Assembly: GCA_001599915.1 (NCBI GenBank)
Contig: BCIG01000021.1
Span: 310,001 to 374,000, forward strand
Reading direction: 5' to 3'
Source of the DNA: Symbiotaphrina buchneri
Taxonomy: Eukaryota > Ascomycota > Symbiotaphrinales > Symbiotaphrinaceae
DNA length: 64,000 nucleotides
This document shows positions 3,301-42,919 of this stretch, piece by piece. Made by a program: the position numbers and the translations under genes. Within the stretch, counting starts at the first letter, position 1. Every line of letters starts with the position of its first letter. Below the pieces are notes generated by a model. It saw nothing but the letters and a program-made list of their open reading frames with translations, was not told the origin of the DNA and did no database searches.

Positions 3301-6300
3301 GGACGTTGAAATGAGCGATGTTTCGGCTGCCAAGTCGGCTTCTCAGTCCGTCGACTCGAATGGCTATCCTAGAGAAATCGTCGAAAATGAGGAAGAACCG
3401 AACGTCTGCACCTATATCGACGTCGCACTCAAGTTTCTCGCTGGATTCTTTAGCAACCAAGCTCTCTGCTCCCAATTTGTGGAGTCAGGCGGGGTAGAAT
3501 ATGTCCTTGATCTGACAACTTTGCCAAGCCTTCCCTACGACTTCAACAGTCATTCAGCCAGTCAATCAACAGCGAGGGTCATACAGATGATGGCGGAACA
3601 GAAACCACACCTTGTCTTGCCGTCCGTAATCAGACGCGCACAGAAAGCCGCGGACGCTCTACAACCATTTTCCGATCACGATGGTGAAAGCCTTTTCTTT
3701 GGACCCCTCACAACCCTACGGGAAGGTACGAGGCCATCTCCTTCTATGCATGCTCAAGGAGAGCGTGATGTCAAAGCCAACGGTACCCGGTATGCCAAGT
3801 CTCTGGTCACCGTTCATACTCTCTGTAATGTCGTGTATGAATGCTTCTCGCAACCGCAGTACAACCAGCGGTCAAGCCAGACTGTCTTCCACCAGGTGAA
3901 TCTCACCGACATGTACGTCAGGCTTACTCGGAGTCTTGGAAAGCTGCACCGTGCGTGCATCTGGGAGGAGGTGTTGTTGCAAAAGACTATTCCTGAACCG
4001 TGGCGGGAAGCTACAAGAAGTGTTGCCGGCGGAGGGGTTGATGGAACAGATGATGTGTTAGGGCTGATCCGACATCCACAACAGGCGTTCCATGCTGCGG
4101 CGACTGCGGCAAACCCCTCCTCTCAGCGTCCAAACGGTGGTTCTAACTCCACTGAAGGCGAGAGAAAGGCTAAACTTGAGCAAGATGAGAAAACTGCTCC
4201 ATTCAAAAATATTCGCACCTTGCAATACCTACTTAGTCAGGTGCCCGAAGCCATCACAGCTTTCTTCCAAGGTCTTGGAAAGATTCTCGTTGCAAAACGC
4301 CAACCAGAGTCGTACCACAAGCAGAATGCTGTTATGGTGGCTGAGGCTATTGCGGAAGCGCTTCTGGATCAGCTACGATTCCTGGCGCCCGAAAGGAGTA
4401 CTTCTGCACAGGACAGGTATTCATACTGGATCGTCACCTTGAGAGCCATATCTCATCTCATGATCGAGGGCCCTATTGAGCGACCACATCCCCAGTGTCT
4501 CACTCTGGTGCTGCAGGCTTTCAAATCTCTGGGTGGCTTTGAGGCAATCAAAAAGATACTTGATGTTTTCTACAGCGAAGTACAATCGACAGCTCAGTCT
4601 GATGATACACAGAGTAGCGAGGACAATTCCGTGCGTCTAGCTGCTTATGGCGGGATGAAGATAATACTCACGATGTTTGCGCAACTGACCACTGCACGGA
4701 ATATAGTCGAAGCCAGTCAGACTGTGGCGATAACATCCAGGGAAAGAGACAGGGACAAGCCTGATTACTTTTCACCAGCCCAGTTCATGGTCGAATTGAG
4801 GATGGCCGTTCTCCCAACAGTTCGGACGCTGTGGGAGTCAGATTTTATGGATAAAGCGGACAGCTCTATCGTCAAATGTGTGGTCGACATACTCCGCACA
4901 GTGTTGCTCGCCGAACATGAACAGGGGGCTTATCGACGAGCGGATAAAGTTCCCAACAAGGACAAAGCACCTTTCAAGCCATGGAAGGAAACGCCGTCTT
5001 TACTTAGTCAGTTGACCGATCGTGGAGTCGATGTCGACCTAGCGAAGGAAGCTCTTTATCGCTGCAACAACAACGTACCCATGGCGAGAGAATATTGCCA
5101 GATTCAAAAAGATCACATGCGTGTCTCCCGCAATCCAATTCCTGCATATGAACTGGAGGCTCAAACTTCCGATGCACGACAGCCGGATACAGACCAAATG
5201 ATTCCAAGTGTAGGTGCTGAGGCTACCATGGCACCGCCTCCTGGACCAAGTGGGCAGTCCGTGCTTCTAGACAATGCGTTGGTCGAAGTTGAAGAAGCGG
5301 AGGGCGACGGAACTCCCGGTTTAAACGAAACGCCACCTCCACCGGCCCCCGGAATTCCAAGAGACGAAGACTTTGGGGAGGATCAAAGTCTCCTCGCAAT
5401 GAGCATTGACAATATTCTGGGCAATCTCGGCCCGGGTCTTAACCGACCGTCGGCAGGTGACTCAGGTACTGCTGGCAATGACAGTGTCTCTCCCTCACCG
5501 ACCCGGGTCAACGCTACAGAAGCCGGACGATTACCTGGGCTGGTTACGGTGGACGACCTCGATAGTGAGCGGTCTCTTGTACGACGAAACCTTATCGACC
5601 GCGCCCTTGACGTGCTTAATGTCCACAGTGATGTCACGTTTGAGTTGGCGGAGCTTATCAGCGCTGCTGTCGCGAAGTCAAGTGATGTTTCGGCAATGCG
5701 CAAAGAAATTGGTGAGACACTTGTACAATCTCTCCAGTCCCTTCAGATGGACGAAGATTTCAGACCAGCAGGCAAGAAAGTGGCGGCCTACGCACATCTC
5801 TTGGCATTGATCATTCAAGATAAGGAGTTCTTTGAAGCCACTCTCGAGGAGCTCAAGGAGAATTATTCCATGTTCATTGCCTTCATCAAGATATTTCCCG
5901 ACCAGCCTATTGATGAACCATCCCCCTGGATTGGTCAGGTATTGCTAATATTAGAGAGGCTACTTGCTGAGGAGGCCCAACCTAAACAAATCAAGTGGAC
6001 ACCACCTACATTGGATAACCCACGTGTGCCTAGCCCTATCGCAGAATACCAACCGCTTATCTCTATGGGAGAAAAGAATGAGTTGCTTACAGCAATTCTC
6101 GAAGTTCTTCCTCGGGTAGGCAAAGACGAGTCCCTTGCTTTGTCGGTCATCCGGACGTTAGTGATCCTCACAAGACAAAGACAACTGGCTGTGAAGCTTG
6201 GTGAAAAGCGCAACATGCAACGCTTATTCTTGATGATGAAGCAATTGGCTGGTAGGGTCAATGAAAAACTGCAGAGTGCCTTCATGCTGGTACTGCGGCA

Positions 6301-9300
6301 CATTATTGAGGATGACGAAACGATCAAGCAGATCATGAAGAGCGAAATCAAGGCCATGTTCTTGGGCAGACAGCAGCGAAACACAGACACTAATGGCTAC
6401 GTCAGACAGATGTACCATCTTGTGCTTCGTGCACCCGAAATTTTCGTGGAAGCCACTGATGAGACACTCAAGCTTGTGCGATTCGATGTCAGCCAGCGAC
6501 CGCAGATGCTGGCTTTGAAGGAGGACAAACAAGAATCCAAGAACCAAGAGCCTGCTTCGACATCTGTCTCATCAAGCGATACAAACAAGGGGGGCTACGA
6601 TCAGGAAGAGGTGAAACTCACAACTGAAGATGACAAGGATGTGTCACGCAAGCCCAAGGCTACGGAGATCAAACCGCCTGTTGTGGAAAATCCTGACGGC
6701 GTCATACACTATCTTTTGTGTGAGCTGTTGTCTTACAAGGACGTCGATGACAAAGATCCCGCTGCTACCAAAGAAGCACCGAAAGAAGAAGTACCGGCTG
6801 TTACGAACGAATCTGGCGGAGATGGTGCTAGCTCCTCGACTGCCAGTGTCGCCAATACTGATGGGAAGAAGACGGACAAGCCTGAATTCAAGGCTGACGA
6901 ACACCCAATCTACATCTATCGCTGCTTCCTTTTGCAATGTCTCACCGAATTGCTCTCTTGCTACAACCGCACCAAGATTGAATTCATAAATTTCTCTCGG
7001 AAAGCGGATCCACTTGCCGCGACGCCTTCCAAGCCGCGATCCGGTGTCCTCAACTATCTGCTTAATGCACTCATCCCAGTTGGTACCCTTGCACATTCGG
7101 ATGACATTTCTTTTCGGAAGAAATATGCCACATCCAACTGGGCGATATCTACGATCGTCGCCCTGTGTTCCAAAACCGGCGAGCGAGGTTACGAACGCTC
7201 CCGGGGTGTCATCGGTACCGAGGAAGAAACCGATCTTCTTTTTGTCAGAAAATTCGTCCTGGAGCATGCCTTGAAAGCTTATAAAGACGCTTGCATTTCA
7301 AATGAAGGACTGGATGAGAAGTATGGCCGGATGTTGAACCTTGCGGACCTCTTCAACAGGATGTTGACTGGAAAGCCCAATTCTGGAGGCAGCAACATCG
7401 CTGCTGAGATGCTCGTCTCCTCCCAACGACAGCTTGCTAGGATCATGTTTGAGAAGAATTTTATCTCCGTCCTCACCAGTTCAATAGCGGATATCGACTT
7501 AAACTTCCCTGGGGCAGAACGCGCCGTCAAGTACATCCTTCGTCCACTCAGGCTTCTGACTCAGACAGCCCTGGACCTGAATGAATCCTCAACTTCTACT
7601 ACTCCTGGTCAGACGGATGAAGACGAGATCTCCTCCGCAACTTCGGTCTCCGATATTGACGATGGGCGGGAGGAAACTCCAGATCTGTTCCGCAACTCTA
7701 CCTTAGGAATGTTAGAACCAGGTAGGGAGGACGAAACAAGCTCAGAATCTCTCGATGGTATGTGTTTTCTTGACTATCCGGTGCCGAGCTAATGAAAATA
7801 CTAGAAGACGATGATGAGATGTACGACGACGATTATGGGGACGAGATGGACTACGAAGAAGAAATGGCCGGTGATGACGATGAACCCGTCAGCGACGAAG
7901 ATGAAGACATCGAAGGTATGGGTCCCATCGAAGGAATGCCGGGTGACGTCGGGATGGATGTTGAGGTTGTAATCGATGGTGATGAAGACGAGGACGAGAT
8001 CGACGAGGAGGACGAGGAAGATAGCGAAGATATTGACGAAGAAGACCTTGACGCTCAAGATGAGGATACCGGGGACGACAATGGTAGCCTTGACGATGGG
8101 GAAGATGACGAGTGGGAAAGCGAAGAAGAGGATGAAGATGCATACGACGAGGGAGGGATTCACCAAGGTCCCGATCATCGGCACGATACACCAGCACTAG
8201 AGACGATAGTACGTGCACTTGAAGGCAGCGCTGGCGATATGATTGAGCAACTGGAGGGTGATCTGGATATGGAGTTAGACCCAGAAGGATATATGGAGGA
8301 TGATGTCCAAGACGAAGAAGAGGACGATGATGATGACGATGATGAAGATATTGACGGGGACGATGCAATATATGAACCAGACATGGAGGATGATGATCAC
8401 GGCATGACAAATATACCGTGGGGATGGGATGCCGATGAGCCTGTCATGACAAGAGGTCATCATCATCACCATATTCATCGTGGTCCTATTCCTTGGCCAT
8501 ACAGCCCTTGGTCGACTTTACATGGCGGACATAGAGATATGATGGTACCCTCATATCGATCTCACAGACCTGGGGCTGGCCGAGGGACAGAAGATGGTGT
8601 CAATCCTTTACTTCAGCGGAGTGGTAATAATCCCGGTGCCAGTGCTGCAAGGGCTTCTCATCCAGAAGGGATGAGTGATTGGGTCAATGTGTTCGATCGC
8701 GATCACGCTGGCCGAGGGATCATCTCTGCAGACAGTCCTGTGTCTCTCATAAACAGTTTGATCACAGCAATGGGGCAAGCCGGCGCTGGCGGCTTTGGGG
8801 CGCTTCCTCGTCATGGTGGTGCCCTTCATTTCCATATCACTGGCGGTCCGGGCGGGATACTACCGCCGGAAATTCAAGGCATTCTTGGTGCGAGGCGTCC
8901 GCCACCAGAGCCATCGCGCCCGTCTCGTGACGATCCGGCCCAGGCGGTAAGCTTCGTTCCAACGGTAACGGCGAACAGATGGCAGGAAGAGGCTCGCATT
9001 CTCTATGGCACTGGCTATGTTGATAAGGCACAGAACATCATAAACTCCATATTACGGGTCCTGGTCCCGCCTGCTATCGAGGAAGAGAAGCAGCGACGGG
9101 AGAAGGCCGCCGAGGCAGTACGCAAGGCCCAGGAAGAACAATCAAGACAAGCTGAAGAGGAGCGGATAGCCAGGGAGAAGGCTGAGAAAGAGGCAGAGGA
9201 ACAGCGGAAAAAGGAAGAGCAGGAAGCAGCGGAAAGAGCAGCCGCCGAAGTGGAAGATGCAGCGTCGCGGTCTCAGCATGATACGGCGGAACAGATTGAA

Positions 9301-17521: not shown

Positions 17522-19775
17522 ATGTCGACCATCAACGCTGATTATGACGGCCGGTACAAGCATTTAGAAGAAATACATCGCCCCTATCGCTCGCACAAGG
17601 TTCGTGCATGCGATAGATGTCGGCGGCGGAAGACGCAGTGTAGGGTTGACCAGCCCGGTCAACCATGCTCATCGTGCCGCAAACAAGGCCTTGAATGCCT
17701 TTACAAAGAGAGCTATGTGGAAGCTGTACATGGTGCCAGTCACGGCAACGAAAGAAGTCAACTTATGCGTCTTGCTCGAGCTGCACCTGGCCATGTCCGG
17801 AGAACACGCCGGCGGCACGGTCCATCGGAGCTTGACGGATATGATAATGTGCCCCGCGATCTTCAGCCAGAGGCATCAACTGCTGCAGGAAAGAGGAAGC
17901 GGTACAATAATGGGGCAGACATAGCAGGTTCTGGCTTGCGGGCCAATGTTTCAGAGACAGACAATCAAGCCGCCCACATCCTTGGTCCTGTTATGGCTCG
18001 TGAAGCTCAGATCATCGGGAAATCAATGTCATTCAGTCGCCCCAGTCGCAGCTTGGCCCAACCGAATCCATATCACTACTACTCTGATGACCCGAGTGAG
18101 CCTGTGCTCTATATGACAGTTCCAAAACGCCGGGTAGGTCTACGAAGGACGTCGGCGGGTCTGAAGCAACTCCAGATCCTACAAAACATTCTCGGTCCAA
18201 ACATAACCGCGGTTGTTGATCTGTAGGCTGTTGTTGTACGCAATTCTAGACTTGGCATGTTAATCAGGAAACAGCTATTTTGACAGAATCAATCCCTATT
18301 TCCCGGTTCTCGACGAAGAGCCTTTTTGCCAACCGCAGAGGGACTCAGAGAAGCTTCCACCAGCACTGCTGTGCCATGTTTATGCATCAGCACTGATTTA
18401 TTGGGAGCATTCGGCGGACTTGTTGCCCCATTATCAGCCAGATATGACATTTGCCTGGACTCTAGGCACTGAGACTATGAATGATGACTTTTTGGCTCCT
18501 AGCATGTCAACCATCTTGAGTGCTCTTCTGAATCTGAATGGAAGACCATCATTGTCCATCATCGGAAATGCCACACTCTTGGGTAGAGCTGTAGCCCTTG
18601 CTCATAGCCTCGGCCTCAACAGGAATCCGAAGAACTGGAAACAGACTACTGAGAAAGACAAGGCAGAGAGAGTGAGAATATGGTGGGCTGTTCTGTACCA
18701 TGACAGATGGTGACTAAACGGACATTGTAACCCTTTGTACATACAACTAACGGTTTCTAAGGGCTAGTCTTGCTTACGGCATACCCCCTCATATCAGTCG
18801 TCCTCATTATGATGTGCCTCTTCCGTCTGTGACCGAGCTGACTCCGTCCGCGACATGCGGGGCGACAGAAAGTCATGGTGCGCAATGTTTCATAGCCCTC
18901 TGCCGTCTGACCGAAGTTCTTGGAAGGGCACTGCCACTCATATACGATCTCGAAAGCAAACCTTTGGAGGATAGTCTGGGTTTACTTCGAGAGCTACATG
19001 CCGAGCTCGACAATTGGCGGGATTCTCTGCCCGAGCAACTTGCTCTGTCGGACACCCACTTAGGTCCTGTTCCTAAGGATGATGTTTGTAATTTGCATCT
19101 GTCATTCTTAGCAATCAAGATGCTGATTTCCAGAATTGCACTATGTGTGAGTCTCTTCTTCATCCTGCAGGCGGCATCTAACATTCACCAACATGGCATT
19201 GCGCTAGGAAATCTCACGTTCTGAGAGAGGCACGAGAGAAGAGTTGTACGGATACTACCAACAGATGGCTGTTCAGCAAGCTCGAAGCGTCGTCATATTT
19301 GGGACAGCACTAAAAAAGCATCACCTCAGAGAATTTTGGGTCCCATGTAAGCATGTGTGACTGAGCAAAGAGACGTAGCTCATGTCGCCCAGACAGTGCC
19401 TATCATTTTGCGGCTGCTATAACGCTTCTTCTGCGCTGCGCCTGCGAGCTGCACGATCCTACACAAGCCGACGAGTGCCTCGAATGGGCCCAGTCACTTA
19501 TGCGGCGTCTGCAAGAGGCCAAAGAGGAGAATAGTTGGGATCTCGCAGATGTCTGCCTTATTCAATGCGAAGAGATCATGAGTCGAGTGCGGCTACATGG
19601 ACGAGGTGCACTCCAGTCCGTTCTTAGCACCAATCTGCAGGGAATGGATGCTGTGCCTGCTGGCAACGGGTCAGACCCTACGTTGACCGAGCAGCCTGGG
19701 GTAGCAGATGATCTTTCGACACTCTTTCCCAACTTGTGGGATATGTTCCCTGAACAGTCAGAAGAGGCGGTCTGA
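17522..19775 (+). CDS. Zn2Cys6 transcription factor with fungal_trans domain
   Basis: A pathway-type fungal transcription activator or repressor. Five exons read in frame: 17522-18222, 18275-18709, 18762-19146, 19208-19346 and 19393-19775, giving about 680 residues. The N-terminus carries a complete binuclear zinc cluster with Cys at 30, 33, 40, 49, 52 and 59 (spacing 2-6-8-2-6). After a basic linker, the middle homology region begins with YFDRINPYFPVLDE in exon 2 and contains LLGRAVALAHSLGLNR and RVRIWWAVLYHDRW, the usual fungal_trans signatures. Exons 3-5 are helical and contain REFWVPYSAYHF. The target is unknown; the next gene downstream on the same strand is a Gfo/Idh/MocA oxidoreductase, which makes it a candidate target. 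The intron 2 acceptor and the exon 3/4 junction were chosen by frame continuity and could be off by a few codons. Confidence 0.85.
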
Positions 19776-20491: not shown

Positions 20492-21597
20492 ATGGCACGA
20501 AAGCTGAAGATCGCTTGTGCCGGCCTGGGTCGTATGGGAAAGCGCCATGCGTTGAATCTGCTGAACCGCACCCCTCGAGCCGATCTCGTTGCAGCTTTTA
20601 CGCCAGACGACACGGAAGCCCAATGGGCCAAGGCCAATCTGGAGGGCGTCACCATTTACAATGACTATGAGACGATGCTCAAGCATCCTGGGCTGGAAGC
20701 TGTGTTGGTAGCTTCAGTGACCACGGTACATGCCGAACAAGCCATTAAAGCTATTGAAGCAAACAAACACGTCCTCTGTGAGAAGCCGCTCTCTACGAAC
20801 ATCCAAATCGTGTGTATAACCCGATCTCTCTGGATTTCTCTGTCTGACAGTCACAGTCACAATCGGTTCTTGATGCTGCGAAAAAGAAGCCCCACCTAAA
20901 GGTCATGTGTGGGTTCTCGCGCCGATTTGATGCTTCCTACCGTGACGCCTGGGAGAAGATGGATAGTGGCTTGATCGGCAGACCGTCCGTATTCCGCTCG
21001 CAGACCTGCGACAAGCTCGATCCCAGCGGCTTCTTTGTAGCGTACGCGAAATTCTCTGGAGGCATCTTCGTTGACTGTTCCATTCATGATATAGACCTTT
21101 GTCTGTGGTTCTACGGCGAGGATTCGCAGGTCAAGTCCATTTCCGCGGTCGGTATCACTGCCGTGGAGCCAGGCCTCCGGAAGCATAACGACCGCGACAA
21201 TGCTGTCGGAGTTGTCGAGTTCTATGGGGGAAGGATTGCTTATTTCTATGCTTCCCGTATGATGGCGTCCGGGCAGCACGATATGACTGAAATCATCGGT
21301 ACCGAGGGCAAACTCAGTGTTAACGCAGAACCTCAAAGCCATCTAGTCAGCGTTTGGGAGGCGACTGGCGTCCGGCGGGAGATTCCTGCCGACTATTATG
21401 GCCGGTTTGAGATGGCTTTCGTGACGGAAACTAACGAGTTTACGGCTGCATGCCTTGACAATACCAAGGTTCCCGTGAAACTCAGTGGTGCGGTTAAGGC
21501 AGTCGCAATTGGCTGTGCTCTGCAAGAGTCTCTCATCACCGGGAAAAAGATATTTTTCGATGAAACCGGAAGCAGGGTGGAACAGGCGGTGTTGTAG
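20492..21597 (+). CDS. Gfo/Idh/MocA-family oxidoreductase, inositol 2-dehydrogenase-like
   Basis: An NAD(P)-dependent dehydrogenase of the family that oxidises myo-inositol and other sugars. Exon 1 is 20492-20809 and exon 2 is 20857-21597, giving 352 residues, the normal length. Start MARKLKIACAGLGRMGKRHA contains the Rossmann GxGxxG; VLCEKPLS carries the conserved Lys of the EKP motif, and VDCSIHDIDLCLWF carries the His/Asp region of the active site. The acceptor is ambiguous: AG at 20850 and AG at 20856 both keep frame and differ by two residues; I prefer the second because the CTGAC branch site is only a few bases from the first. It may relate to the inositol-related enzymes at 37.9-41.4 kb, but the actual substrate cannot be read from sequence. 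Confidence 0.88.
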
Positions 21598-26540: not shown

Positions 26541-27476
26541 TCAGCCATCGACGTACTTCCTCCAGTCATGCACATCCTTATAGCCCAATACCTCTCGAAT
26601 CTTTCTATTACTGAGAGGAGCCTCCCATTCGCCCATTTTTCTCGTGATAGGCACATTGGGACATGCCTTCTTCAAGAATTCCTCGGTGGGGACGTCCGTA
26701 GTGATGGTATCGTTGGTCGCGTTGAACACTTGGAAGTTCAACCCATCCTTCTCGACGCATAGATGGCAGATCTGGCCCAGATCTCTGGCATCTATATAAC
26801 TCCATGCGTTTCTCTTCCTCGTTTCGGGGTGCTTCACAAAGCTAGGGAAGTCCCTCGCGTACTCATGTGGCTCGATGACATTGCCAATGCGCAGCGCGTA
26901 GATGTCCGCCTTCAAGCGTCTCGCGAAGGTGCGCGCTGTGCGTTCACCGCACAGCTTGCTCAGCGCATACGAGTCCATGGGATCACAGTCGTAGTCCTCC
27001 TCCAGCGGGAAGCTGTGGTAGTCGCTGTCGCCCTGGGCAAAGCAGACGCCGTACGTCGTCTCCGAGGACGCGATGATGATCTTTTTGATGCCGAGCTTGC
27101 AGGCGGCCTCGATGACGTTGTATGTGCTGGTGACGTTGGCGCGGAAGGTCTCGTTGTCGGGCACCAGCATGTTCCGCGCATAGGCGGCGAAGTGGATGAC
27201 GGCGTCTGGCAGGGCAACGGGACCCTCGGTGGAGAGATCGCGCTCTGCGGCGTACTCGTCCATGTTGAAGTGCGTTGAGAGTGCATTGAAGACTTGGCCA
27301 CTGTCGGTCAGATCCGTCTTCAGGGTATAGACATCTGGGTTCAGCCCCTTTCCGTCGGGATTGGGCACAGGGACGAGGTCGAGGTTCAGGACCTGATGTC
27401 CTTTAGACAGCAGGTAGGGGATACAATGGCGGCCAGCTTTGCCAGAGCCACCTGTGAACACGATGCGCTTGCCCAT
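26541..27476 (-). CDS. Extended SDR: NAD-dependent epimerase/dehydratase family
   Basis: A single-exon 311-residue protein of the extended short-chain dehydrogenase family, which includes UDP-sugar epimerases and uronate dehydrogenases. The N-terminus has the cofactor loop FTGGSGKAGRH; VIHFAAYARN follows, then SSETTYGV with the catalytic Ser/Thr region and YALSKLCGE with the Tyr-x3-Lys pair. The sequence WSYIDARDLGQICHLCVE is the usual motif near the substrate pocket. Length and order are complete. The overall look (short protein, no sugar-nucleotide C-terminal extension) resembles uronate dehydrogenase-type SDRs more than UDP-galactose epimerase, but the substrate is not determinable here. 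It is convergent with the leucyl-tRNA synthetase gene. Confidence 0.85.
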   Translation of the reverse strand: MGKRIVFTGGSGKAGRHCIPYLLSKGHQVLNLDLVPVPNPDGKGLNPDVYTLKTDLTDSGQVFNALSTHFNMDEYAAERDLSTEGPVALPDAVIHFAAYARNMLVPDNETFRANVTSTYNVIEAACKLGIKKIIIASSETTYGVCFAQGDSDYHSFPLEEDYDCDPMDSYALSKLCGERTARTFARRLKADIYALRIGNVIEPHEYARDFPSFVKHPETRKRNAWSYIDARDLGQICHLCVEKDGLNFQVFNATNDTITTDVPTEEFLKKACPNVPITRKMGEWEAPLSNRKIREVLGYKDVHDWRKYVDG

Positions 27477-34262: not shown

Positions 34263-35560
34263 TTATACATCTGTCTCGTCAGACTCGATCACAACTTTCA
34301 GCACCAGTTTGCCCTCCGCATCGGCGGTCTTCCCTGCCATTTCAAAGGCACTCTTTACCGTGTCCTCCTTCAAACCTCTGAAACGATGTGTAACCAGTTT
34401 CTCGAACTCCGGCACCGTCTCCTCCTCCTTTCCAGGTATTGGCTGGCCGGCCCGTGACACAATCGAGATCCCTTCACCGTATGTGTTTGCATAACGGAAT
34501 ACCCCTACTAGATCAACTTCCCTCAAGGCTGCTGCAGAGATAGGCAGTGTTTGAATTGGCGTCCCCATACCAATCATCAACACGCGCCCACCGGGCCTCG
34601 CAGCATACATAGCGGCCTGTAAGCATGCTTCCACTCCCGTGCACTCGAAGACTGCGTCGAACAGGCCAATTGCACCACCATCCTTCCGCTCCACATCGCC
34701 AGCTATTCCAGCTACTTCCCTTGCAATCTCCAGCTTCTCTTCAATTGTGGTGCCCCGCTTTCTGGGCACTACGAAGCCCCTATGCGCGAAGCCGTTCTTG
34801 ACAGCGAAGTCCACCCGGCCGGCATCAATGTCTGCAATCACAACAGTGCTGCCTTTCGGCGATTTCACCTTCGCCATGGCTGCAGCAAGTAATCCTACCG
34901 CCCCTGCTCCCAAAACGAGCAAGCTCAATGGACCTTCATTGGCTTTGGCCAGGGCATCTAACTGGGCCCTCCTTATGGCGTGGAGTGCCACCCCCAACGG
35001 CTCCAAGAGTGCCCCCACTGCGGGAGAGACGCTCTCGGGCAGCTTGTAGCACCATTCTCCCGGGTGGTTGATGGCTCCTTGCAAGGTACCCTGGAAATGA
35101 GGAAAGCTCTTGCCCGAGCTCCGGAACCGCATCCCACTGCAGATGTTGTATCTTCCCTCCTTGCATCGTGCGCAGTTTCCGCAGGGCAAGCCCACTTCAA
35201 GGGCGACGCGATCGCCAGGGGCGAACTTGGAAGTCAAAGAGGAGCCGACAGCAAGTACGGTCCCGCTGGATTCGTGGCCTAGGGACAGGGGTTCGCGAAG
35301 GAGAATATCGCCATTGGCAAAGTGGTTGAAGTAATGTAGGTCGGAGCCGCAGAGACCGGTGTGAGTGACGTGGACTTGGAGCTCGGTTGGGGATGGAGGA
35401 GGAAGGGCTCGCGATTCCTGTGTAATTGTGAGCGCCGCTTCAAAGAACTGGGAGGTCTGGCACTGCATACAATGGCCAGGGTCTTAGGCGCCTGTAAGAC
35501 CGAGGCGGTTATTGTGCGGGGTTTGGACTCGACGGAAGGGGAGATAGCTGCGGGAGACAT
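34263..35560 (-). CDS. Zinc-dependent sorbitol/L-idonate-type dehydrogenase (MDR family)
   Basis: A medium-chain polyol dehydrogenase. Exon 1 (35471-35560) encodes MSPAAISPSVESKPRTITAS to LAI; exon 2 (34263-35417) continues with ESRALPPPSPTELQ; together 414 residues. The 53-nt intron restores the usual N-terminal beta-strand, which would otherwise be lost. Catalytic zinc ligands show in GLCGSDLHY and GHESSG; the structural zinc site is intact in CGNCARCKEGRYNIC; the Rossmann loop is GAGAVGLL. The family oxidises sorbitol, xylitol or L-idonate. Its divergent partner is a gluconate-5-dehydrogenase-type SDR, and myo-inositol oxygenase lies 3 kb away, so L-idonate 5-dehydrogenase (the GluE step of Aspergillus D-glucuronate catabolism) is my preferred role; xylitol or sorbitol dehydrogenase is the alternative. 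Confidence 0.85.
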
Positions 35561-36010
35561 GGTGGGAGATGATGGTTGAGGGATGTCTCATGCAAGCGGA
35601 ACGAATAACCAATATATTGTTAAAATATGCTTCCAAGAAAGCAACTTTGTCAGTCAAGAGAACAGAATTTCGTATCAAATTATCGCGGTGATGATGTCTT
35701 TCCGAGCCTTGATCCCACAACAATTCATTAAATGGTGGTGAATCAAAGGACATGATCCTGTAGGCTTTTGTACCCCCGCGGGGTGAACTTCCTTAGATTT
35801 GTAGCATCCCGCAACATTGCATCCCACCGGCGTCACGCTAGGCCGACCACCGAGCGAGGGACTGACGATGGCGTGGGGTGACTGTGGGTCTGTGCGCGTT
35901 TCTTCTTCCTCATCATGCGGCAGCTGAGCAACCGTGACGATGGCTTCTTAAGATAAATACAGGGGCTCTCCTAATTATCTGGCCTCATCTGATTGTGTGA
36001 ATGCGAAACA
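35561..36010. promoter_or_regulatory. Divergent promoter of Zn dehydrogenase and KduD-like SDR
   Basis: A 450-bp region between two gene starts. It has an AT-rich part near the dehydrogenase (35600-35720) and a GC-rich part near 35820-35900. CCGGCGTCACG at 35827-35837 matches a sequence in the myo-inositol oxygenase/AKR promoter (39346-39356) at ten of eleven positions. A TATA-like AGATAAAT patch lies near 35951, just upstream of the SDR. Shared control of both genes is likely given their arrangement. Confidence 0.5.
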
Positions 36011-36952
36011 ATGGCATCTCTTCAACAGCTCTTCTCTCTCGAGGGTCAAACCGCCCTCGTCACCGGGGGAACGCGGGGCGTCGGGCAAGCCATGGCTGTT
36101 GCCCTGGCGGAAGCTGGCGCGGACGTCCTCCTGGTGCAAGTATAGCTTCCTACTCCTCAATCCAGACTATAATAGACTGACAAGTGGTATCGCCAGAGAG
36201 ATCACTCCAAAACACAGACAAAGTCGCAAATTGAGGCACTGGGCCGCAAAGCCACCATCTACACGGCGGATCTGGCATTGCCGGAGTCCGTCAAAGCAGT
36301 TACGGAAGCTATCTTCAAAGATGTACCGCGGGTGGACATCCTGCTGGACTGTGCGGGCATCCAGCGGAGACATCCCAGTCATCTTTTCCCCGACGATGAT
36401 TGGAACGAGGTACGTCCCAGCGCTTGTTGGTTTGAGTCTTCTTTCTGGACTCGGCTCGCGCCCGCATTCATATGCGTAAATGGCTGCTGACACAGTCTCT
36501 CGCAGGTCCTCCAAGTCAACCTCACAACACCCTTCCTCCTATGCCGCGCCGTGGGCGCTCACATGCTCAACCAGCCGCCGCACCCCACTACATCGCGGCG
36601 CGGGAGTATCATCAACATCGCCTCGCTCCTCTCCTTCCAAGGAGGGATTACCGTGCCAGCCTACGCCGCGTCCAAAGGCGGGGTGGCGCAGCTTACCAAA
36701 GCCCTCAGCAACGAGTGGGCCGGCAAGGGCATCACGGTCAATGCGATCGCGCCCGGATATATTGCGACCGAGATGAATACTGCGCTGATGCATGATGATG
36801 CGCGGGCGACGAGCATCTTGGCGAGAATCCCGGCTGGCAGATGGGGGAGTCCAGAGGACTTTAAGGGTGTGGTGGTGTGGTTGGCGAGTAAAAGCGCGGG
36901 GTATGTGAGCGGTGAGGTGGTCACGGTTGATGGAGGTTGGATGGGTCGGTGA
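36011..36952 (+). CDS. SDR, 2-deoxy-D-gluconate 3-/gluconate 5-dehydrogenase-like
   Basis: A classical short-chain dehydrogenase that interconverts keto-gluconates and gluconates using NAD(P)H. Exons 36011-36139, 36197-36409 and 36506-36952 give 262 residues, the normal classical SDR length. Visible motifs are TGGTRGVGQ (cofactor loop, residues 18-26), DCAG in ILLDCAGIQ (NNAG equivalent), [11 protein letters not shown] with the catalytic Ser, YAASKGG with Tyr and Lys, and [13 protein letters not shown]. The closest family by feel is KduD/IdnO. With the neighbouring Zn dehydrogenase and MIOX, reduction of 5-keto-D-gluconate to D-gluconate (the GluF step) is a plausible job. This is inference; 2-deoxy-gluconate or 2,5-diketo-type substrates are alternatives. 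Confidence 0.88.
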
Positions 36953-37862
36953 TCTGGTATATATCATGCTGGTCTGGCTTTAGGGTAATATAAACAAAAA
37001 CACCTTTAGAGATGTCAATTCTGATCCAATTCATGCCATACCATGCTGGCCTGGTCCCATAAGCGGTCATCTCCAAGCAGGCACCCAGCGAACACAAACA
37101 CACAACCCCTGAGTACCCCTGAACTACGGTAGCAAGCACCCAACATCCAGTCCAATACTCCACCCTCCATCAAGATCCTCCCATTTACCTTAATTCTGCC
37201 TCCTCCACCAGGCCCATCCCTTCCCCATCTCTCCACTCACAATTTTTCCAAACCAATTTCCCCACGGTCCTCTACTTCGTACACAAGCGGGCCATGACCC
37301 CCACGTCTTCTCGGGCCGCATGACCGAAGGAATTCCTTGGCGCGGTTTGTTGCTGGACCCCTGGAGTGCCCCGCCCGCGGGGAAAGTTGCCTTTTTGGGA
37401 TGCCGAGCCAGAAATAGTACCCACCCGGGTGCAGTAACTGGGCTGGCCACTCATAGCCCGTTGATTTCCATGCAGCCAGATGGCCAGGTTGATCCGTCTC
37501 CCGGGTATGGGAAATAGAGGGCAAAAATTGGGAAGTAATGAATGAGGCAGAGTCTTGAGTGGTACAAAATACCATCAACGAATTGTTGAAAGGGTAAAAG
37601 TAGGGTAAGCCAGGGGACCAGCACGTCCAGAGGGAACGTCTGATGTGATTACCAGAGCTACAGTTCTTGGACAACCAGTGTAGTGAGAGACAACGAAAAA
37701 TGATTTATTCTTCCAACATATCTTATTCGCTAACAAGGTCATATCCTGATAATTTAGGTATACTTTAATGGTCCATAATGAACATAATCCAACGTACAAC
37801 GCCAAAACATAGCAACCCAATGTCCTTTGAAAAGATTAATCGATAACTATCGGCATTTGCAT
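36953..37862. other. Convergent intergenic region, 0.9 kb
   Basis: It lies between the stop of the KduD-like SDR and the stop of myo-inositol oxygenase. A minus-strand frame of about 145 codons (37237-37674) lacks any family resemblance. No RNA gene, repeat or mobile element was recognised; 37680-37830 is AT-rich. Confidence 0.4.
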
Positions 37863-38877
37863 CTACCACCGCAAAACCTTGTTGGGGAAGTACTCATCGA
37901 TGAGCTCCAGGTAGTAAGGCTGTTTCATCATTAGCATGTCACTTGGTCTCTCGAAGGGAAGCAGTCGAACGAACCTTGAGCTCCTCTACGGTAGGTACTT
38001 CATCGCTCTTGGAGTACAAGTCGTAGGGGTTGAATGCCTTGACAGCCTCCAACATCTTCTTGTCATGCTCGTTCATGAAGTAGCGATAAGCACCAGCATT
38101 GTGCCAGGGGTAGAAGCTGTGGTAGCGGATCATAGCCAGCGCCTCATCCGGCAGAGTCGATTGCTCCTTGACGATATGGTACAGGTACTCATCATGGCCC
38201 CAGCTGAGCATGACCTTGTCGAGACCACAGCCCTCGCTGTAGATGCCATACTTGGTGCTGTAGATCGGATGGTTGTAGTCCTCGTTGCCTTTAAAGGTAT
38301 CTGGATAGATGATACGCTCATCAAAGGCGCAGCCCACAGGGAACGTGTCGCCGACGACGTCCCACTGACCTTCCGCGTCGAAAAAGAAAAGGAGCTTGCC
38401 AAGATCATGGATGAGGCCAGTGAGCTGCATCCAGCGAGGCTTGCCATCGCGACGAATGGCTTCCGCCGACTGTAGCAGGTGCTCAATCTGTGAGAGCGAG
38501 GTGTCCGGGTCAGATTCGTCGATGAGTGTATTCAGTTTCTCCATGGCCTCCCAGATAGTCATGTGAGCACGGGTCTTGCTGTTGAAGCTGTGGCGGGCTT
38601 TGAGGTTGTATGCCACGGTCTGTTTCTCGTGCTGCTCGCGATAGAAGTTCTTGACGCGGTAGCACGCATCTTCGAATTGCCGGAACTGCGTCTTGTCTTT
38701 GTTCGCGTCGAACTTGGATTGCTCATAGAGATCAACTTCCTCGGCCGTGGCCGTGCCTTGCTTGACTTTGGCAGCAGCCTTGAGGACATTAACCTTGTCG
38801 ATATCGTCGGACACAGCCTCAAGTTCTCTGCCGTCGCGGCGGGTGTTGAAGGTCTCTTCAAGCATTGCAGGTGCCAT
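37863..38877 (-). CDS. miox: myo-Inositol oxygenase
   Basis: This di-iron enzyme cleaves myo-inositol with O2 to D-glucuronate, the entry to inositol catabolism. Exon 1 (37975-38877) encodes MAPAMLEETFNTRRDG onward; a 55-nt intron leads to the last exon (37863-37919), PYYLELIDEYFPNKVLRW, the hallmark C-terminus; total 319 residues, normal for the family. Iron ligands are visible in the family motifs: the His of ARHSFNSKT, HD in GLIHDLGKLL, HDEY in LSWGHDEYLYHIV and the RYHSFYPWH segment, with a late Asp. The substrate region PVGCAFDERIIYPDTF is intact. It is divergent from an aldo-keto reductase across a 1.3-kb promoter and close to two other sugar-acid enzymes, which points to inducible growth on inositol or uronate. 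Confidence 0.96.
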
Positions 38878-39112
38878 TTTTGCTAATAAAATTAAGATGC
38901 AGAAACTGGGTATCTTTGAGGAACAAAAGGATAGGAAGGAATCTTGAAGTAGAGGTTCAGAGATATGTGGATGAGAAGAAATCTATGTCGAGATCTGGGG
39001 GGAGGAAGGGTTATTTCTACTCCAAGGGACTTGCTTCAAGATAATAATGGAAAACCATTTCCAGGCAAGTACATCAAGAAAAGTTCCTTCGCAGATTGCC
39101 CACACAACGGAC

Positions 39113-39138
39113 AGAGAGAGAGAGAGAGAGAGAGAGAG
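39113..39138. repeat. (AG)13 microsatellite
   Basis: Thirteen uninterrupted AG dinucleotides lie about 235 bp upstream of the MIOX start. On the MIOX sense strand this is a CT tract, a common feature of fungal promoters and leaders. Confidence 0.95.
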
Positions 39139-39268
39139 GGACACTAGTGTGGCACTCCCCATGCTGGAGCATAGCGGAGTGGAGATCGAGACAAGAGCAA
39201 CTCTGTGGCCACTGCCACTCATCGTTGATGCATTCCATCAATGCAAAGCCCTGAATTAGCTCCTTCCC

Positions 39269-39351
39269 CGCCGGATCAACTTTCGATATTAATTAGTATC
39301 GACCCACAGGGACCTCAGGCCGTGGGGTCTCAGATAGCGGTCGATCCGGCG
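39269..39351. repeat. Nested inverted repeats in MIOX/AKR promoter
   Basis: Outer arms CGCCGGATC (39269-39277) and GATCCGGCG (39343-39351) are perfect 9-bp complements 65 bp apart. Between them is an 18-bp near-perfect palindrome, CGATAT-TAATTA-GTATCG (39284-39301), with one mismatched pair. The outer arms each contain CCGGAT or its complement, resembling half-sites of zinc-cluster factors. Confidence 0.6.
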
Positions 39352-40200
39352 TGACGTGGAAAGACTCTGACCCATGAGGATCCATGATTGGACCCGTGCT
39401 TGACCGTTTATTGTCATGGTGCGAAACTCCGGAGCTCTTCCAGGCCTCAGACATGGTGCATGAACGCGGCCGGGGCGCCTAGCGCAAACAGCGCGGAAAA
39501 TCTCTCGCCCTGGCGTCCATCAACCCGCAAATCACTGCCCGATGCAGACGTGGGAGCTTCCGTAGCGTAAGCCACACGGAATAACTCGCACCGTGACCCA
39601 GCGTCGGCATCCTAAAATAGGAAAGTTTCGGCGTCATGCCTGGCCCGGAATTCAAGTTTTGAAAGGGGAATCTCAGCGCTGATACCGGAAAACCACTCCC
39701 GAAAATTACAAACGAGAGTTCCAAATCGTCAACTTCAAGAAACTGGTTGGAGTTGGCGTCATATCTCCTGACTACCCCATGCGACAGAAGGCAAGGGGTT
39801 CGATATGAGAGAGAAGGAACGAGTGAAAGGCTCGATGTTGTTATTCTGAGGGTGAACCTCAGGAGCAATCACATCTGTAAGTGCAAGTACAGGTGTAAAA
39901 CCATAAGGTGTGTACTCCGTGCACCACACCCACTTCGGTGGGACCGGAGCGCAATAACGTTTTCGAGCATCTTCCGGCAGGGACAAATATTTCTCCTAGC
40001 TCCCGTCCTGACACCGGAACAATTTTTGCCAGCGCCGGTCCCGGCCCCACGCACTTGTTGTAGATATCGTCATAGGCGCTTTGCAACCGCCGGATTCACT
40101 GTACCAGAATCTTCTGTTCTGCAGCTACGAAGTGTACAGACGACCGACATTAAACGGCAATTCAGAGTCATAGAAAAGCATTTTTTCTGCCAAAACCATC

Positions 40201-41362
40201 ATGGATCGCTGCCCTGTTATGTCCGGCAAAGGGCCCGAAGCAATTCAGAAGTCCCTGCAGGAGACACGGTTGCCCGCCGATGTCAATCCCGCATCTCACA
40301 TCCCCACCGTAGACGCGGTCAATCTCCCTCTACCCCTGAACAATGGCACCGCTATTCCTGCTCTTGGTCTAGGGACGTGGCAGTCGGATCCAGGGAAGGT
40401 CAAGGAGGCTGTTAAATACGCTCTATTGAACGGCTATCGGCACATTGACTGCGCATACGTCTATGGAAATGAAGCCGAGGTCGGCGAGGGCATCAAGGAA
40501 GCCCTTGCTACTGGAAAGGTCAAGCGGGAGGACATTTTTGTGACCACGAAGTTGTGGTGCACCTATCATTCGAGAGTTATGGAGAACCTGGAGAAGAGCT
40601 TGAAGTTGCTGCAGCTGAATTATGTGGACCTATACCTCGTTCATTGTAAGAATTTGTGTTTAAGTAGCATGCGACGGGCGTACTGCTAACGATAAAATCT
40701 AGGGCCTGTACCAATGAACCCGAAAGGCAACGACGAGAAATTTCCAAAGCTCCCAGATGGCAGTCGTGATATCCAGAAAGATTGGAGACACACAGATACA
40801 TGGGCGGAGATGGAAAAGCTCCCGGGAACTGGTAAGGTCAAAGCAATCGGCGTCTGCAACTATAGTGTTCCGTTCCTCGAAGAGCTTTTGTCCAAAGCGA
40901 AAATCGTACCCGCTGTCAACCAGATCGAAAACCACCCATACCTACCACAACAGGAAATTGTCGACTTTTGCAAGGAAAAGGGTATTCGCATTACGGCATA
41001 TAGCCCTCTGGGTAGCACTGGGGGCCCGTTGATGCAAGACATGGCTATACTGGGGATTGCAGGAAAGTGGGGTGTCAGTCCGGCCTGTGTTCTCCTGAGT
41101 TATCATGGTGAGTGATCCCCTACTTGCAGTCGCCGTGCAGACCAGCCTAATCTCCGTGACAGTCGCTCGGGGCAGCGCGGTTCTCGCCAAATCAGTGACA
41201 CATTCGCGGATAGATGCGAACAAAAAGATCATCAAGCTGGATGATAGGGATATGCAGACCCTGGAGCAGGTTCATAAGAAGAGAGGTATCACGAGATATG
41301 TCTACCCAGCATTCGGCGTAAATATGGGATTCCCAGACAGGCCCGATGGGTTGAAGCTATAA
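40201..41362 (+). CDS. Aldo-keto reductase, candidate D-glucuronate reductase
   Basis: An NADPH-dependent carbonyl reductase of the AKR superfamily. Exons 40201-40645, 40703-41107 and 41163-41362 give 349 residues. The barrel signature [15 protein letters not shown] begins near residue 50; the catalytic Asp and Tyr are in [12 protein letters not shown], the Lys in VTTKLW and the His in LYLVHW, which is completed only by splicing intron 1. The second AKR signature region [14 protein letters not shown] and [12 protein letters not shown] follow; the cofactor-binding end has [14 protein letters not shown] in place of the common IPKS form. The N-terminal ~40 residues are an extension beyond the barrel; an ATG at 40219 is an alternative start. 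Divergent pairing with MIOX suggests it reduces D-glucuronate to L-gulonate (GluD step); glycerol dehydrogenase-type activity is the alternative. Confidence 0.88.
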
Positions 41363-41720
41363 GTTGGCAAAGCATAATAAAAAGAAGCGTGTAGTAGATG
41401 TCGATCTGCGAATATCAATTCATTTACACGCCCAATGTGTTGTCTGTCTGAGTCTACCAATGCATGCTGCTCACTTGGCTGTCCTGATACGCTTATGGAT
41501 AGTTTCGGCGGACGAAGGAACTTTGAAGATGCATGAAGGAAGGCTAAGTCGTCATTGAACACGAATTCAGTGCATGAATTACTAATGCACATCTCTGTTT
41601 ATATGAAAGCCCACGAGGATCCTCTTGTCACTTGTGAAGTAGGAATATCCAGACATTATTTTTCGTGATACAGTTCATCTCTCACTGACTGTTCTCAAAG
41701 ATAAATCTGCCTGACTATCA
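41363..41720. other. Intergenic, AKR to SDR
   Basis: A 358-bp gap between two plus-strand genes; it should hold the AKR 3' end and the promoter of the next gene. No TATA box or repeat stands out. Confidence 0.4.
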
Positions 41721-42919
41721 ATGAGTCCGGCCATATTCCTGTAAGTTGCACCACTGTAACTTCGTAGCCCCTCGGCTACGGCCGCCCCAGGTCAGACGTC
41801 GGACAAAAGAAGTTCCGCTCACTCGTATCCTAGGACCGGCGGAACGGGATATATCGGCGGCAGTGTCTTGCACACGCTGGTTGAGCACAACCCGGAGTAC
41901 GACATTACAGTCCTTCTCCGGAAGACCCCCGATGGCTTTTCCAAACGCTATCCTCATGTACACATAGTTACTGGTGACTATGACAGTGCCGATGTGCTGT
42001 CAGACGCCGCATCCAAAGCCGACATTGTCGTTCGTAAGTCTCGACCACCTACCTGCAGGCAGCCTGAAGATCAATTGACCTTTGAAATGCAGATTGTGGT
42101 AATTCCGACCATGAAGCATGCGTCCGAGCCTTGATTGCGGGCCTGCTGCGCCGGAAGGAGCAGTCGTTCCTAATACATCTCGGCGGGACCGGCATAGTCT
42201 CAGACTGGCACGATGACAGATACCGCGGCGAGCTCAACCCGAAAGTATGGTCCGACGTCGACGACATCGATGCCATCTGGTCTCTGCCTGATGATGCCTT
42301 TCACCGCAATGTGGACAAGATCATACAAGAGGCGGCCGAGAAGCATGGGGACAAGCTGAAAACGGCCATTGTCTGCCCCCCTGATATCTACGGAAAGGGC
42401 AAGGGCTTCGTTCGTACACAGAGTGTATGCATACCTGGCTTGTACAATGAGATCCTTAGAGTCGGTGCGCCGTTCTACACGGGTTCCGGCGCCAACACGC
42501 GGTCCTGGGTTCATATCGATGATCTTATGAAGGTGTACCTGAAGATAGTGGAAGCCGCAACAAATGGTGGCAGTAATGCTGATTGGGGCAAAAACGGCTA
42601 CTATTTCACGGCTAGCCAGGAAACGAGTCAATATGATCTTGCTAAGGCAGCTGGCAAAATACTGAAGAGTCATGGGCTCATTCAGACAGATGAACCCAAG
42701 CAATTGCCCCTGTCAGAAGTCGACGGCATGTTGGCTTATCTGGGCTACCCGCATATTGGCACCTACATGTTTGCCTCCAACTCTCGTACCCGAGCAGACA
42801 GGGCGAGGAAAGTCCTCGGTTACGAGCCGGATGCACCGAGTATTTGGGATACCATGGAGGCGGACCTTCTTGCAGCACACGACAATGCGCGCAAGATCGA
42901 TGTGAGCACTGCAGTGTAA
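41721..42919 (+). CDS. NAD(P)-binding atypical/extended SDR, NmrA/epimerase-like
   Basis: Exons 41721-41740 (20 nt), 41834-42033 and 42093-42919 give 348 residues. The first intron splits the start MSPAIFL from TGGTGYIGGSVLHTL, the Rossmann loop; without it the protein would lose its first beta-strand. Later motifs include DIVVHCGNSDHEACV, LIHLGGTG, PPDIYGKGKG and RSWVHIDDLMKVYLKIVEAA, typical of extended or atypical SDRs that act on small metabolites. There is no classical YxxxK at the expected place, so catalysis may be lost or altered, as in NmrA-like sensors. It sits in tandem behind the aldo-keto reductase and could belong to the same pathway or simply be adjacent. The substrate is unknown. 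Confidence 0.82.

Follow-up and report, generated by a model that had tools for sequence, protein, structure and literature searches.

A myo-inositol oxygenase gene linked to putative genes of the reductive D-glucuronate route in Symbiotaphrina buchneri

In a window of 64,000 nucleotides from the genome of the fungus Symbiotaphrina buchneri (contig C21, positions 310001-374000), four intron-containing oxidoreductase genes at 34263-41362 form two head-to-head pairs. One pair codes for a zinc-dependent dehydrogenase of the MDR family and an SDR, the other for a myo-inositol oxygenase (MIOX) and an aldo-keto reductase (AKR). We think that this locus is probably a small catabolic cluster which channels D-glucuronate made from inositol into the reductive route of glucuronate breakdown in fungi. 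The gene models were rebuilt by hand-guided splicing, and the whole genome (23.4 Mb in 82 contigs) served as the search space. An earlier note on this DNA had placed the four genes in these families and in divergent orientation, which the gene models and Pfam matches confirmed. The genes and the two regions shared by the pairs are as follows.

34263..35560, minus strand: MDR, zinc dehydrogenase of the polyol type; exons 34263-35417 and 35471-35560; 414 amino acids; Pfam ADH_N/ADH_zinc_N
35561..36010, no strand: region shared by MDR and SDR, presumed bidirectional promoter; 450 bases; from gene models
36011..36952, plus strand: SDR, KduD-like; exons 36011-36139, 36197-36409 and 36506-36952; 262 amino acids; Pfam adh_short/adh_short_C2
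37863..38877, minus strand: MIOX; exons 37863-37919 and 37975-38877; 319 amino acids; Pfam MIOX, PF05153
38878..40200, no strand: region shared by MIOX and AKR, presumed bidirectional promoter; 1323 bases; from gene models
40201..41362, plus strand: AKR; exons 40201-40645, 40703-41107 and 41163-41362; 349 amino acids; Pfam Aldo_ket_red, PF00248

Two of these models correct earlier open reading frames: the MDR starts at 35560, as the previous start at 35468 falls within a 53-base intron (35418-35470), and a 3' intron takes the end of the MIOX gene to 37863, 76 bases past the former end at 37939. The introns of the SDR gene were picked among many open combinations.

In the proposed pathway, MIOX would convert inositol to D-glucuronate, and the divergently paired AKR would reduce this with NADPH to L-gulonate. 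L-Gulonate would then be converted via 2-keto-L-gulonate to L-idonate by enzymes encoded elsewhere, after which the MDR would produce 5-keto-D-gluconate with NAD+ and the SDR would reduce it with NADPH to D-gluconate. Finally, a gluconokinase would feed D-gluconate into the pentose phosphate pathway, and a gluconokinase gene scoring above its cut-off is present on contig C11. Substrates, cofactors, co-regulation and the step of the AKR are what we infer from the genes and their linkage.

The MIOX is unambiguously identified by its sequence. It matches PF05153 with an E value of 4e-129 and 429.9 bits (curated cut-off 25), it is the sole MIOX match in the genome, and it also matches the mammalian MIOX structures 2huo and 2ibn. 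In the alignment to mammalian MIOX, the motifs containing H (SQIEH), HD (LIHDLGK), H (SWGHDEY), H (RYHSF) and D (NPYDLY) are all conserved, and we take these His and Asp residues to be the metal ligands. The window protein shares the whole domain and the metal-binding motifs with other fungal and animal MIOX, and its gene is linked to probable downstream genes of glucuronate metabolism.

If genes were randomly placed, the chance of finding one MDR, one SDR and one AKR each within 8 kb of MIOX would be about 5e-8, an estimate that assumes independence, uses families picked post hoc and relies on searches which give lower bounds for large families. It is based on 4 loci for polyol-type MDR, 3 for KduD-like SDR and 14 for AKR, with the window gene counted in each. 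The layout also recalls the gluD-gluE pair of Aspergillus niger, which is arranged head-to-head around a 455-base shared region and is reportedly present in most sequenced aspergilli (PMC5306355). As in that pair, a gluE-type MDR gene stands head-to-head with a pathway gene, separated by 450 bases here versus 455 there, whereas MIOX and AKR are additions of the window locus (PMC5306355).

The MDR is a probable ortholog of GluE, the L-idonate 5-dehydrogenase of A. niger. It is remote from all solved structures: its best match in the PDB is human sorbitol dehydrogenase (201.3 bits), and its scores against sorbitol, xylitol and L-arabinitol dehydrogenases are 201, 189 and 160 bits, respectively. 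Among the models of NCBIfam, a library built for prokaryotes, the bacterial L-idonate 5-dehydrogenase fits best, with 151.6 bits far under the cut-off of 469. Three other MDRs of the genome are of comparable similarity to the window protein (145-185 bits), and remoter ones reach at most 62 bits per piece. Because two of these three are L-arabinitol-dehydrogenase-like (matching 3m6i with 552 and 555 bits) and the third is ketose-reductase/xylitol-dehydrogenase-like (340 and 335 bits), the window MDR can be read as GluE-like by elimination: it is a zinc MDR distinct from both types and only 34-38% identical to the three paralogs. It retains Cys, His, Glu and Glu at the presumed zinc positions together with a CxxCxxCx7C motif, and its second strand is followed by an acidic residue (IADID), which we would expect for an enzyme using NAD+. 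The GluE of A. niger is strictly NAD+-dependent and shows low similarity to other L-idonate dehydrogenases (PMC5306355).

The comparison with the A. niger enzymes is one of protein ends, as the termini of GluE and GluF were derived by hand translation of published primers and, for gluF, also a guide RNA. The C-terminus of the window MDR, VVIESDETDV, resembles the [LIV]ESGDD implied by the gluE reverse primer (PMC5306355), and the three paralogs end with KSDREE, QSLE and RGPE. The proposal of the earlier note that the MDR is an L-idonate dehydrogenase is supported at the C-terminus and by the difference from its paralogs, but not at the N-terminus, where the fit to GluE fails. This misfit, the top structure match to sorbitol dehydrogenase and the fact that the SDR matches KduD-type enzymes best would be consistent with a sorbitol-type MDR instead of an L-idonate dehydrogenase, accompanied by an SDR acting on deoxy-gluconate or another ketoaldonate. 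We consider this improbable, since the window proteins agree with GluE at its primer-derived C-terminus and with GluF at either end, and GluF itself has borne the same wrong annotation (PMC5814732).

The best PDB match of the SDR is the 2-deoxy-D-gluconate 3-dehydrogenase 4hp8, and it scores 303.9 bits with the kduD model TIGR01832, under the cut-off of 338.85. GluF of A. niger was wrongly annotated as 2-deoxy-D-gluconate 3-dehydrogenase before it was assayed (PMC5814732). The gluF primers and guide RNA imply a protein which starts with MSAAVASLFSL and ends with GWMGR, preceded by Gly, Ser, Cys or Arg (PMC5814732). The window SDR ends with GGWMGR, so its last five residues are identical to those of GluF, and the two proteins are 262 and 265 amino acids long (PMC5814732). 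It has the traits by which we recognise GluF/KgrA, i.e. an SDR of the KduD/gluconate-5-dehydrogenase group with about 265 amino acids and a C-terminal GWMGR. As both primer-derived ends of GluF fit, the assignment of the SDR as 5-keto-D-gluconate reductase-like, as the earlier note had it, is supported. The window SDR is like A. niger GluF in enzyme group, size and last five residues (PMC5814732), but differs from that case in that its genome contains a second similar SDR.

This paralog is located on contig C19 (at about 5035-6001, minus strand, in locus L065, G000:C19:24001-34000). Its exons show 66, 63 and 78% identity to those of the window gene, the intron positions are shared, it starts with MALSYPNIFSLEG and ends with the same GGWMGR. 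One in-frame TGA interrupts exon 2 of a sequence otherwise in frame, which may mean a pseudogene, an error in the sequence or unusual splicing, whereas the window copy has an open reading frame. The gene adjoining the paralog presumably codes for an enolase-superfamily dehydratase.

The best PDB matches of the AKR are aldose reductase (246.5 bits) and aldehyde reductase 2alr (239.7 bits), and its best-scoring paralog in the genome shares 45% identity over about 311 residues, with short pieces of lower-scoring paralogs reaching 50-61%. The catalytic tetrad and the K-S-R motif, which we presume to bind NADPH, are conserved, as is expected of an AKR-type D-glucuronate reductase. The earlier note had equated the AKR with the step named GluD, which proved wrong: A. 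niger GluD and GluC are 2-hydroxyacid dehydrogenases (PMC5306355; for GluC also PMC4870679), and the AKR matches only PF00248, so that the families do not agree. The known D-glucuronate reductase is GaaA, which is classed in an NAD(P)-binding Rossmann-fold family and not with the AKRs. Because the deletion of gaaA blocks glucuronate use incompletely, leaving some of it, a second, 'still unknown' glucuronate reductase was inferred by the authors (PMC5814732, PMC4870679). With its gene paired divergently with that of MIOX, the AKR suggests itself as a candidate for this second enzyme.

Alternatively, the AKR may act at another step of the same pathway, either converting 2-keto-L-gulonate to L-idonate in place of GluC/GluD or reducing an aldehyde further down the route, with the reduction of glucuronate left to a GaaA-type enzyme. 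In favour of this, the NCBIfam models that fit the AKR best are two 2,5-didehydrogluconate reductases, DkgA with 209.8 bits against a cut-off of 425 and DkgB with 162.9 bits against one of 327, which suggest ketoaldonate chemistry in spite of scores far below cut-off, GaaA is established as the glucuronate reductase (PMC5814732, PMC4870679), and strict patterns for the ends of GluD found no match in the genome's 2-hydroxyacid dehydrogenases. However, the closest structures of the AKR are enzymes with aldehyde substrates, the 2-keto-L-gulonate reductases characterised in A. niger (PMC5306355, PMC4870679) and in grape belong to the 2-hydroxyacid dehydrogenases, and that family is represented by 12 loci in the genome, so we regard this assignment as unlikely, though still worth bearing in mind. 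The grape enzyme had seemed a precedent for an AKR at this step, but was rejected because it is called an AKR in the title and a 2-hydroxyacid dehydrogenase in the abstract of its paper; as a 2-hydroxyacid dehydrogenase, it lends no support to an AKR there.

The reductive glucuronate route suggested in the earlier note was thus retained for MIOX, the L-idonate-5-dehydrogenase-like MDR and the GluF-like SDR, which are physically linked, and the naming of the AKR as GluD was abandoned. A number of observations weigh against the proposed cluster. The partner of the MDR is a GluF-like SDR and not the 2-hydroxyacid dehydrogenase GluD as in A. niger (PMC5306355). No match to 2-Hacid_dh_C, the 2-hydroxyacid dehydrogenase domain of the GluC/GluD family, occurs on contig C21, the 12 loci being located elsewhere, and none of 19 stretches from these loci contains GluD-like termini by the strict patterns. 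The N-terminus MTVNSTE derived from the gluE primer is unlike that of the window MDR (PMC5306355), and the second GluF-like SDR on contig C19, with the TGA in its exon 2, leaves the orthology to GluF ambiguous. The two shared regions of 450 and 1323 bases have only 2 9-mers in common, compared with a mean of 5.8 in random window pairs. Near bacterial MIOX relatives, neither an MDR nor an AKR match was found in any of 80 loci (the best 80 of 575; E 1e-8; some contigs short), and an SDR match was found near 6 of these 80.

In all of the same 80 loci, the bacterial MIOX relatives are 50-61% identical to the window protein. They come from Acidobacteria, Planctomycetes, Verrucomicrobia and others, and this degree of identity raises the question of inter-domain transfer. 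Among 9 pattern matches in viral contigs, there were no MIOX relatives.

The lack of a shared promoter signal in the 9-mer comparison, together with the gap of about 0.9 kb between the pairs, would also suit two unrelated pairs that merely adjoin, with MDR and SDR serving an external polyol or hexonate and MIOX and AKR adjusting the inositol level or providing glucuronate for other uses. For gluE of A. niger (iddA), links to the pentose and galactose pathways are described as well (PMC13158570), which agrees with such a separate role. We attach little probability to it because the substrates align along one route and the proximity of these families to the single MIOX is hardly expected by chance (about 5e-8, post hoc). 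The window contains the sequence CCGGCGTSACG, chosen by eye, at two positions only, one in each divergent region (35827 and 39346), but it was rejected as a shared regulatory motif, as there are 32 copies genome-wide versus 28 of the reversed control. The GaaR-type motif, TCCNCCAAT, was present in neither of the two shared regions, both of which were scanned.

For the steps between L-gulonate and L-idonate, the cluster proposed here would depend on genes elsewhere in the genome. One of the 12 2-hydroxyacid dehydrogenase loci, on contig C24, looks to us like an adenosylhomocysteinase. On contig C28 (locus L045, G000:C28:417646-421188), a 2-hydroxyacid dehydrogenase gene precedes one that seems to belong to the malate/L-lactate dehydrogenase-2 family, with an SDR match about 3 kb off. 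The L-gulonate-oxidising enzyme of the fungal route has not yet been identified (PMC5814732), which was still so in a 2026 paper, and the L045 pair could bear on this missing step. On contig C8, an MDR and a 2-hydroxyacid dehydrogenase gene are paired at 237-239 kb (about 5000-7440 of locus L064, G000:C8:232001-242000). This pair was rejected as gluD-gluE because its MDR is L-arabinitol-dehydrogenase-like and the genes are arranged tail-to-tail, versus head-to-head in A. niger.

Several neighbouring genes were considered as further members, three of which are listed here.

17522..19775, plus strand: Zn2Cys6 transcription factor gene; PF00172 on the first open reading frame (17522-18226); end read from reading frames
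20492..21597, plus strand: IolG-like gene of the Gfo/Idh/MocA family, probably coding for an inositol 2-dehydrogenase; might be an outlying member; exons 20492-20809 and 20857-21597
41721..42919, plus strand: extended-SDR/epimerase-like oxidoreductase, doubtful member; exons 41721-41740, 41834-42033 and 42093-42919; 348 amino acids; PF01370

The gene at 41721-42919 had been suggested as a possible fifth member, for which we found no support: it has general epimerase-type matches only, with two weak matches in the PDB, and its 3' exon, the part searched, matched no NCBIfam model above cut-off. A 12-base word, AAAGTTCCTTCG, is common, on either strand, to the region between MIOX and AKR (38878-40200) and the sequence upstream of this gene (41363-41720).

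The IolG-like gene, with an exon 2 acceptor picked among four, is best described by the model TIGR04380 (263.9 bits, below the cut-off of 355; next model 96.1). Its product is closest in the PDB to the inositol dehydrogenase 4n54 (193.9 bits), and five of its six best matches there are named inositol dehydrogenases, the sixth a 'dehydrogenase'. It has no close paralog in the genome, as the next match reaches 37.8 bits and the whole Gfo/Idh/MocA family accounts for 14 matches. That the window with the sole MIOX match of the genome also contains its one close match to an IolG-like inositol 2-dehydrogenase is a new observation. Under random placement, the chance that two inositol genes, each present as a single copy, lie within about 17 kb of each other would be about 0.15% (post hoc). 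Because a leucyl-tRNA synthetase gene and others lie between the IolG-like gene and the MIOX cluster about 13 kb away, a single cluster including both is not shown. A single-ORF (open reading frame) epimerase-like gene with weak similarity to GalE is located between the two inositol-related places (26541-27476, minus strand). The Zn2Cys6 factor gene adjoins the IolG-like gene and may code for a regulator; like the introns of the cluster genes, it marks the DNA as fungal. In a broader fungal inositol catabolic locus, the IolG-like and Zn2Cys6 genes, about 13-17 kb away, would join MIOX, the AKR as second D-glucuronate reductase, GluE and GluF, and the regulator might govern both ways by which inositol is taken into metabolism; we see this as a tentative and rather unlikely extension of the four-gene cluster. 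The resemblance to the bacterial iol operon lies in the IolG-like gene, which scores below the IolG cut-off.

Among the papers listed in searches of open-licence literature, judged mostly by titles and abstracts, none describes a fungal MIOX-glucuronate gene cluster. A related case is Neurospora crassa, in which sodh-1 (NCU01905, the iddA ortholog) and gcy-2 (NCU01906), judged adjacent from their locus numbers, would place a gluE-type MDR gene beside a GCY-named reductase gene (PMC13158570). There, gcy-2 is treated as a galacturonate reductase gene, and inositol and MIOX are not mentioned in the excerpts of that paper (PMC13158570).

Papers of 2016-2017 described the D-glucuronate route of fungi, still lacking a second reductase for glucuronate and the enzyme that oxidises L-gulonate (PMC5814732, PMC4870679). 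The linkage to MIOX points to inositol as a physiological source of the glucuronate, and the AKR would be a concrete candidate for one of the missing enzymes. The four-gene set may also be of use for making intermediates of the gluconate pathway from inositol, and its linkage makes the proposed pathway from inositol to gluconate easy to test.

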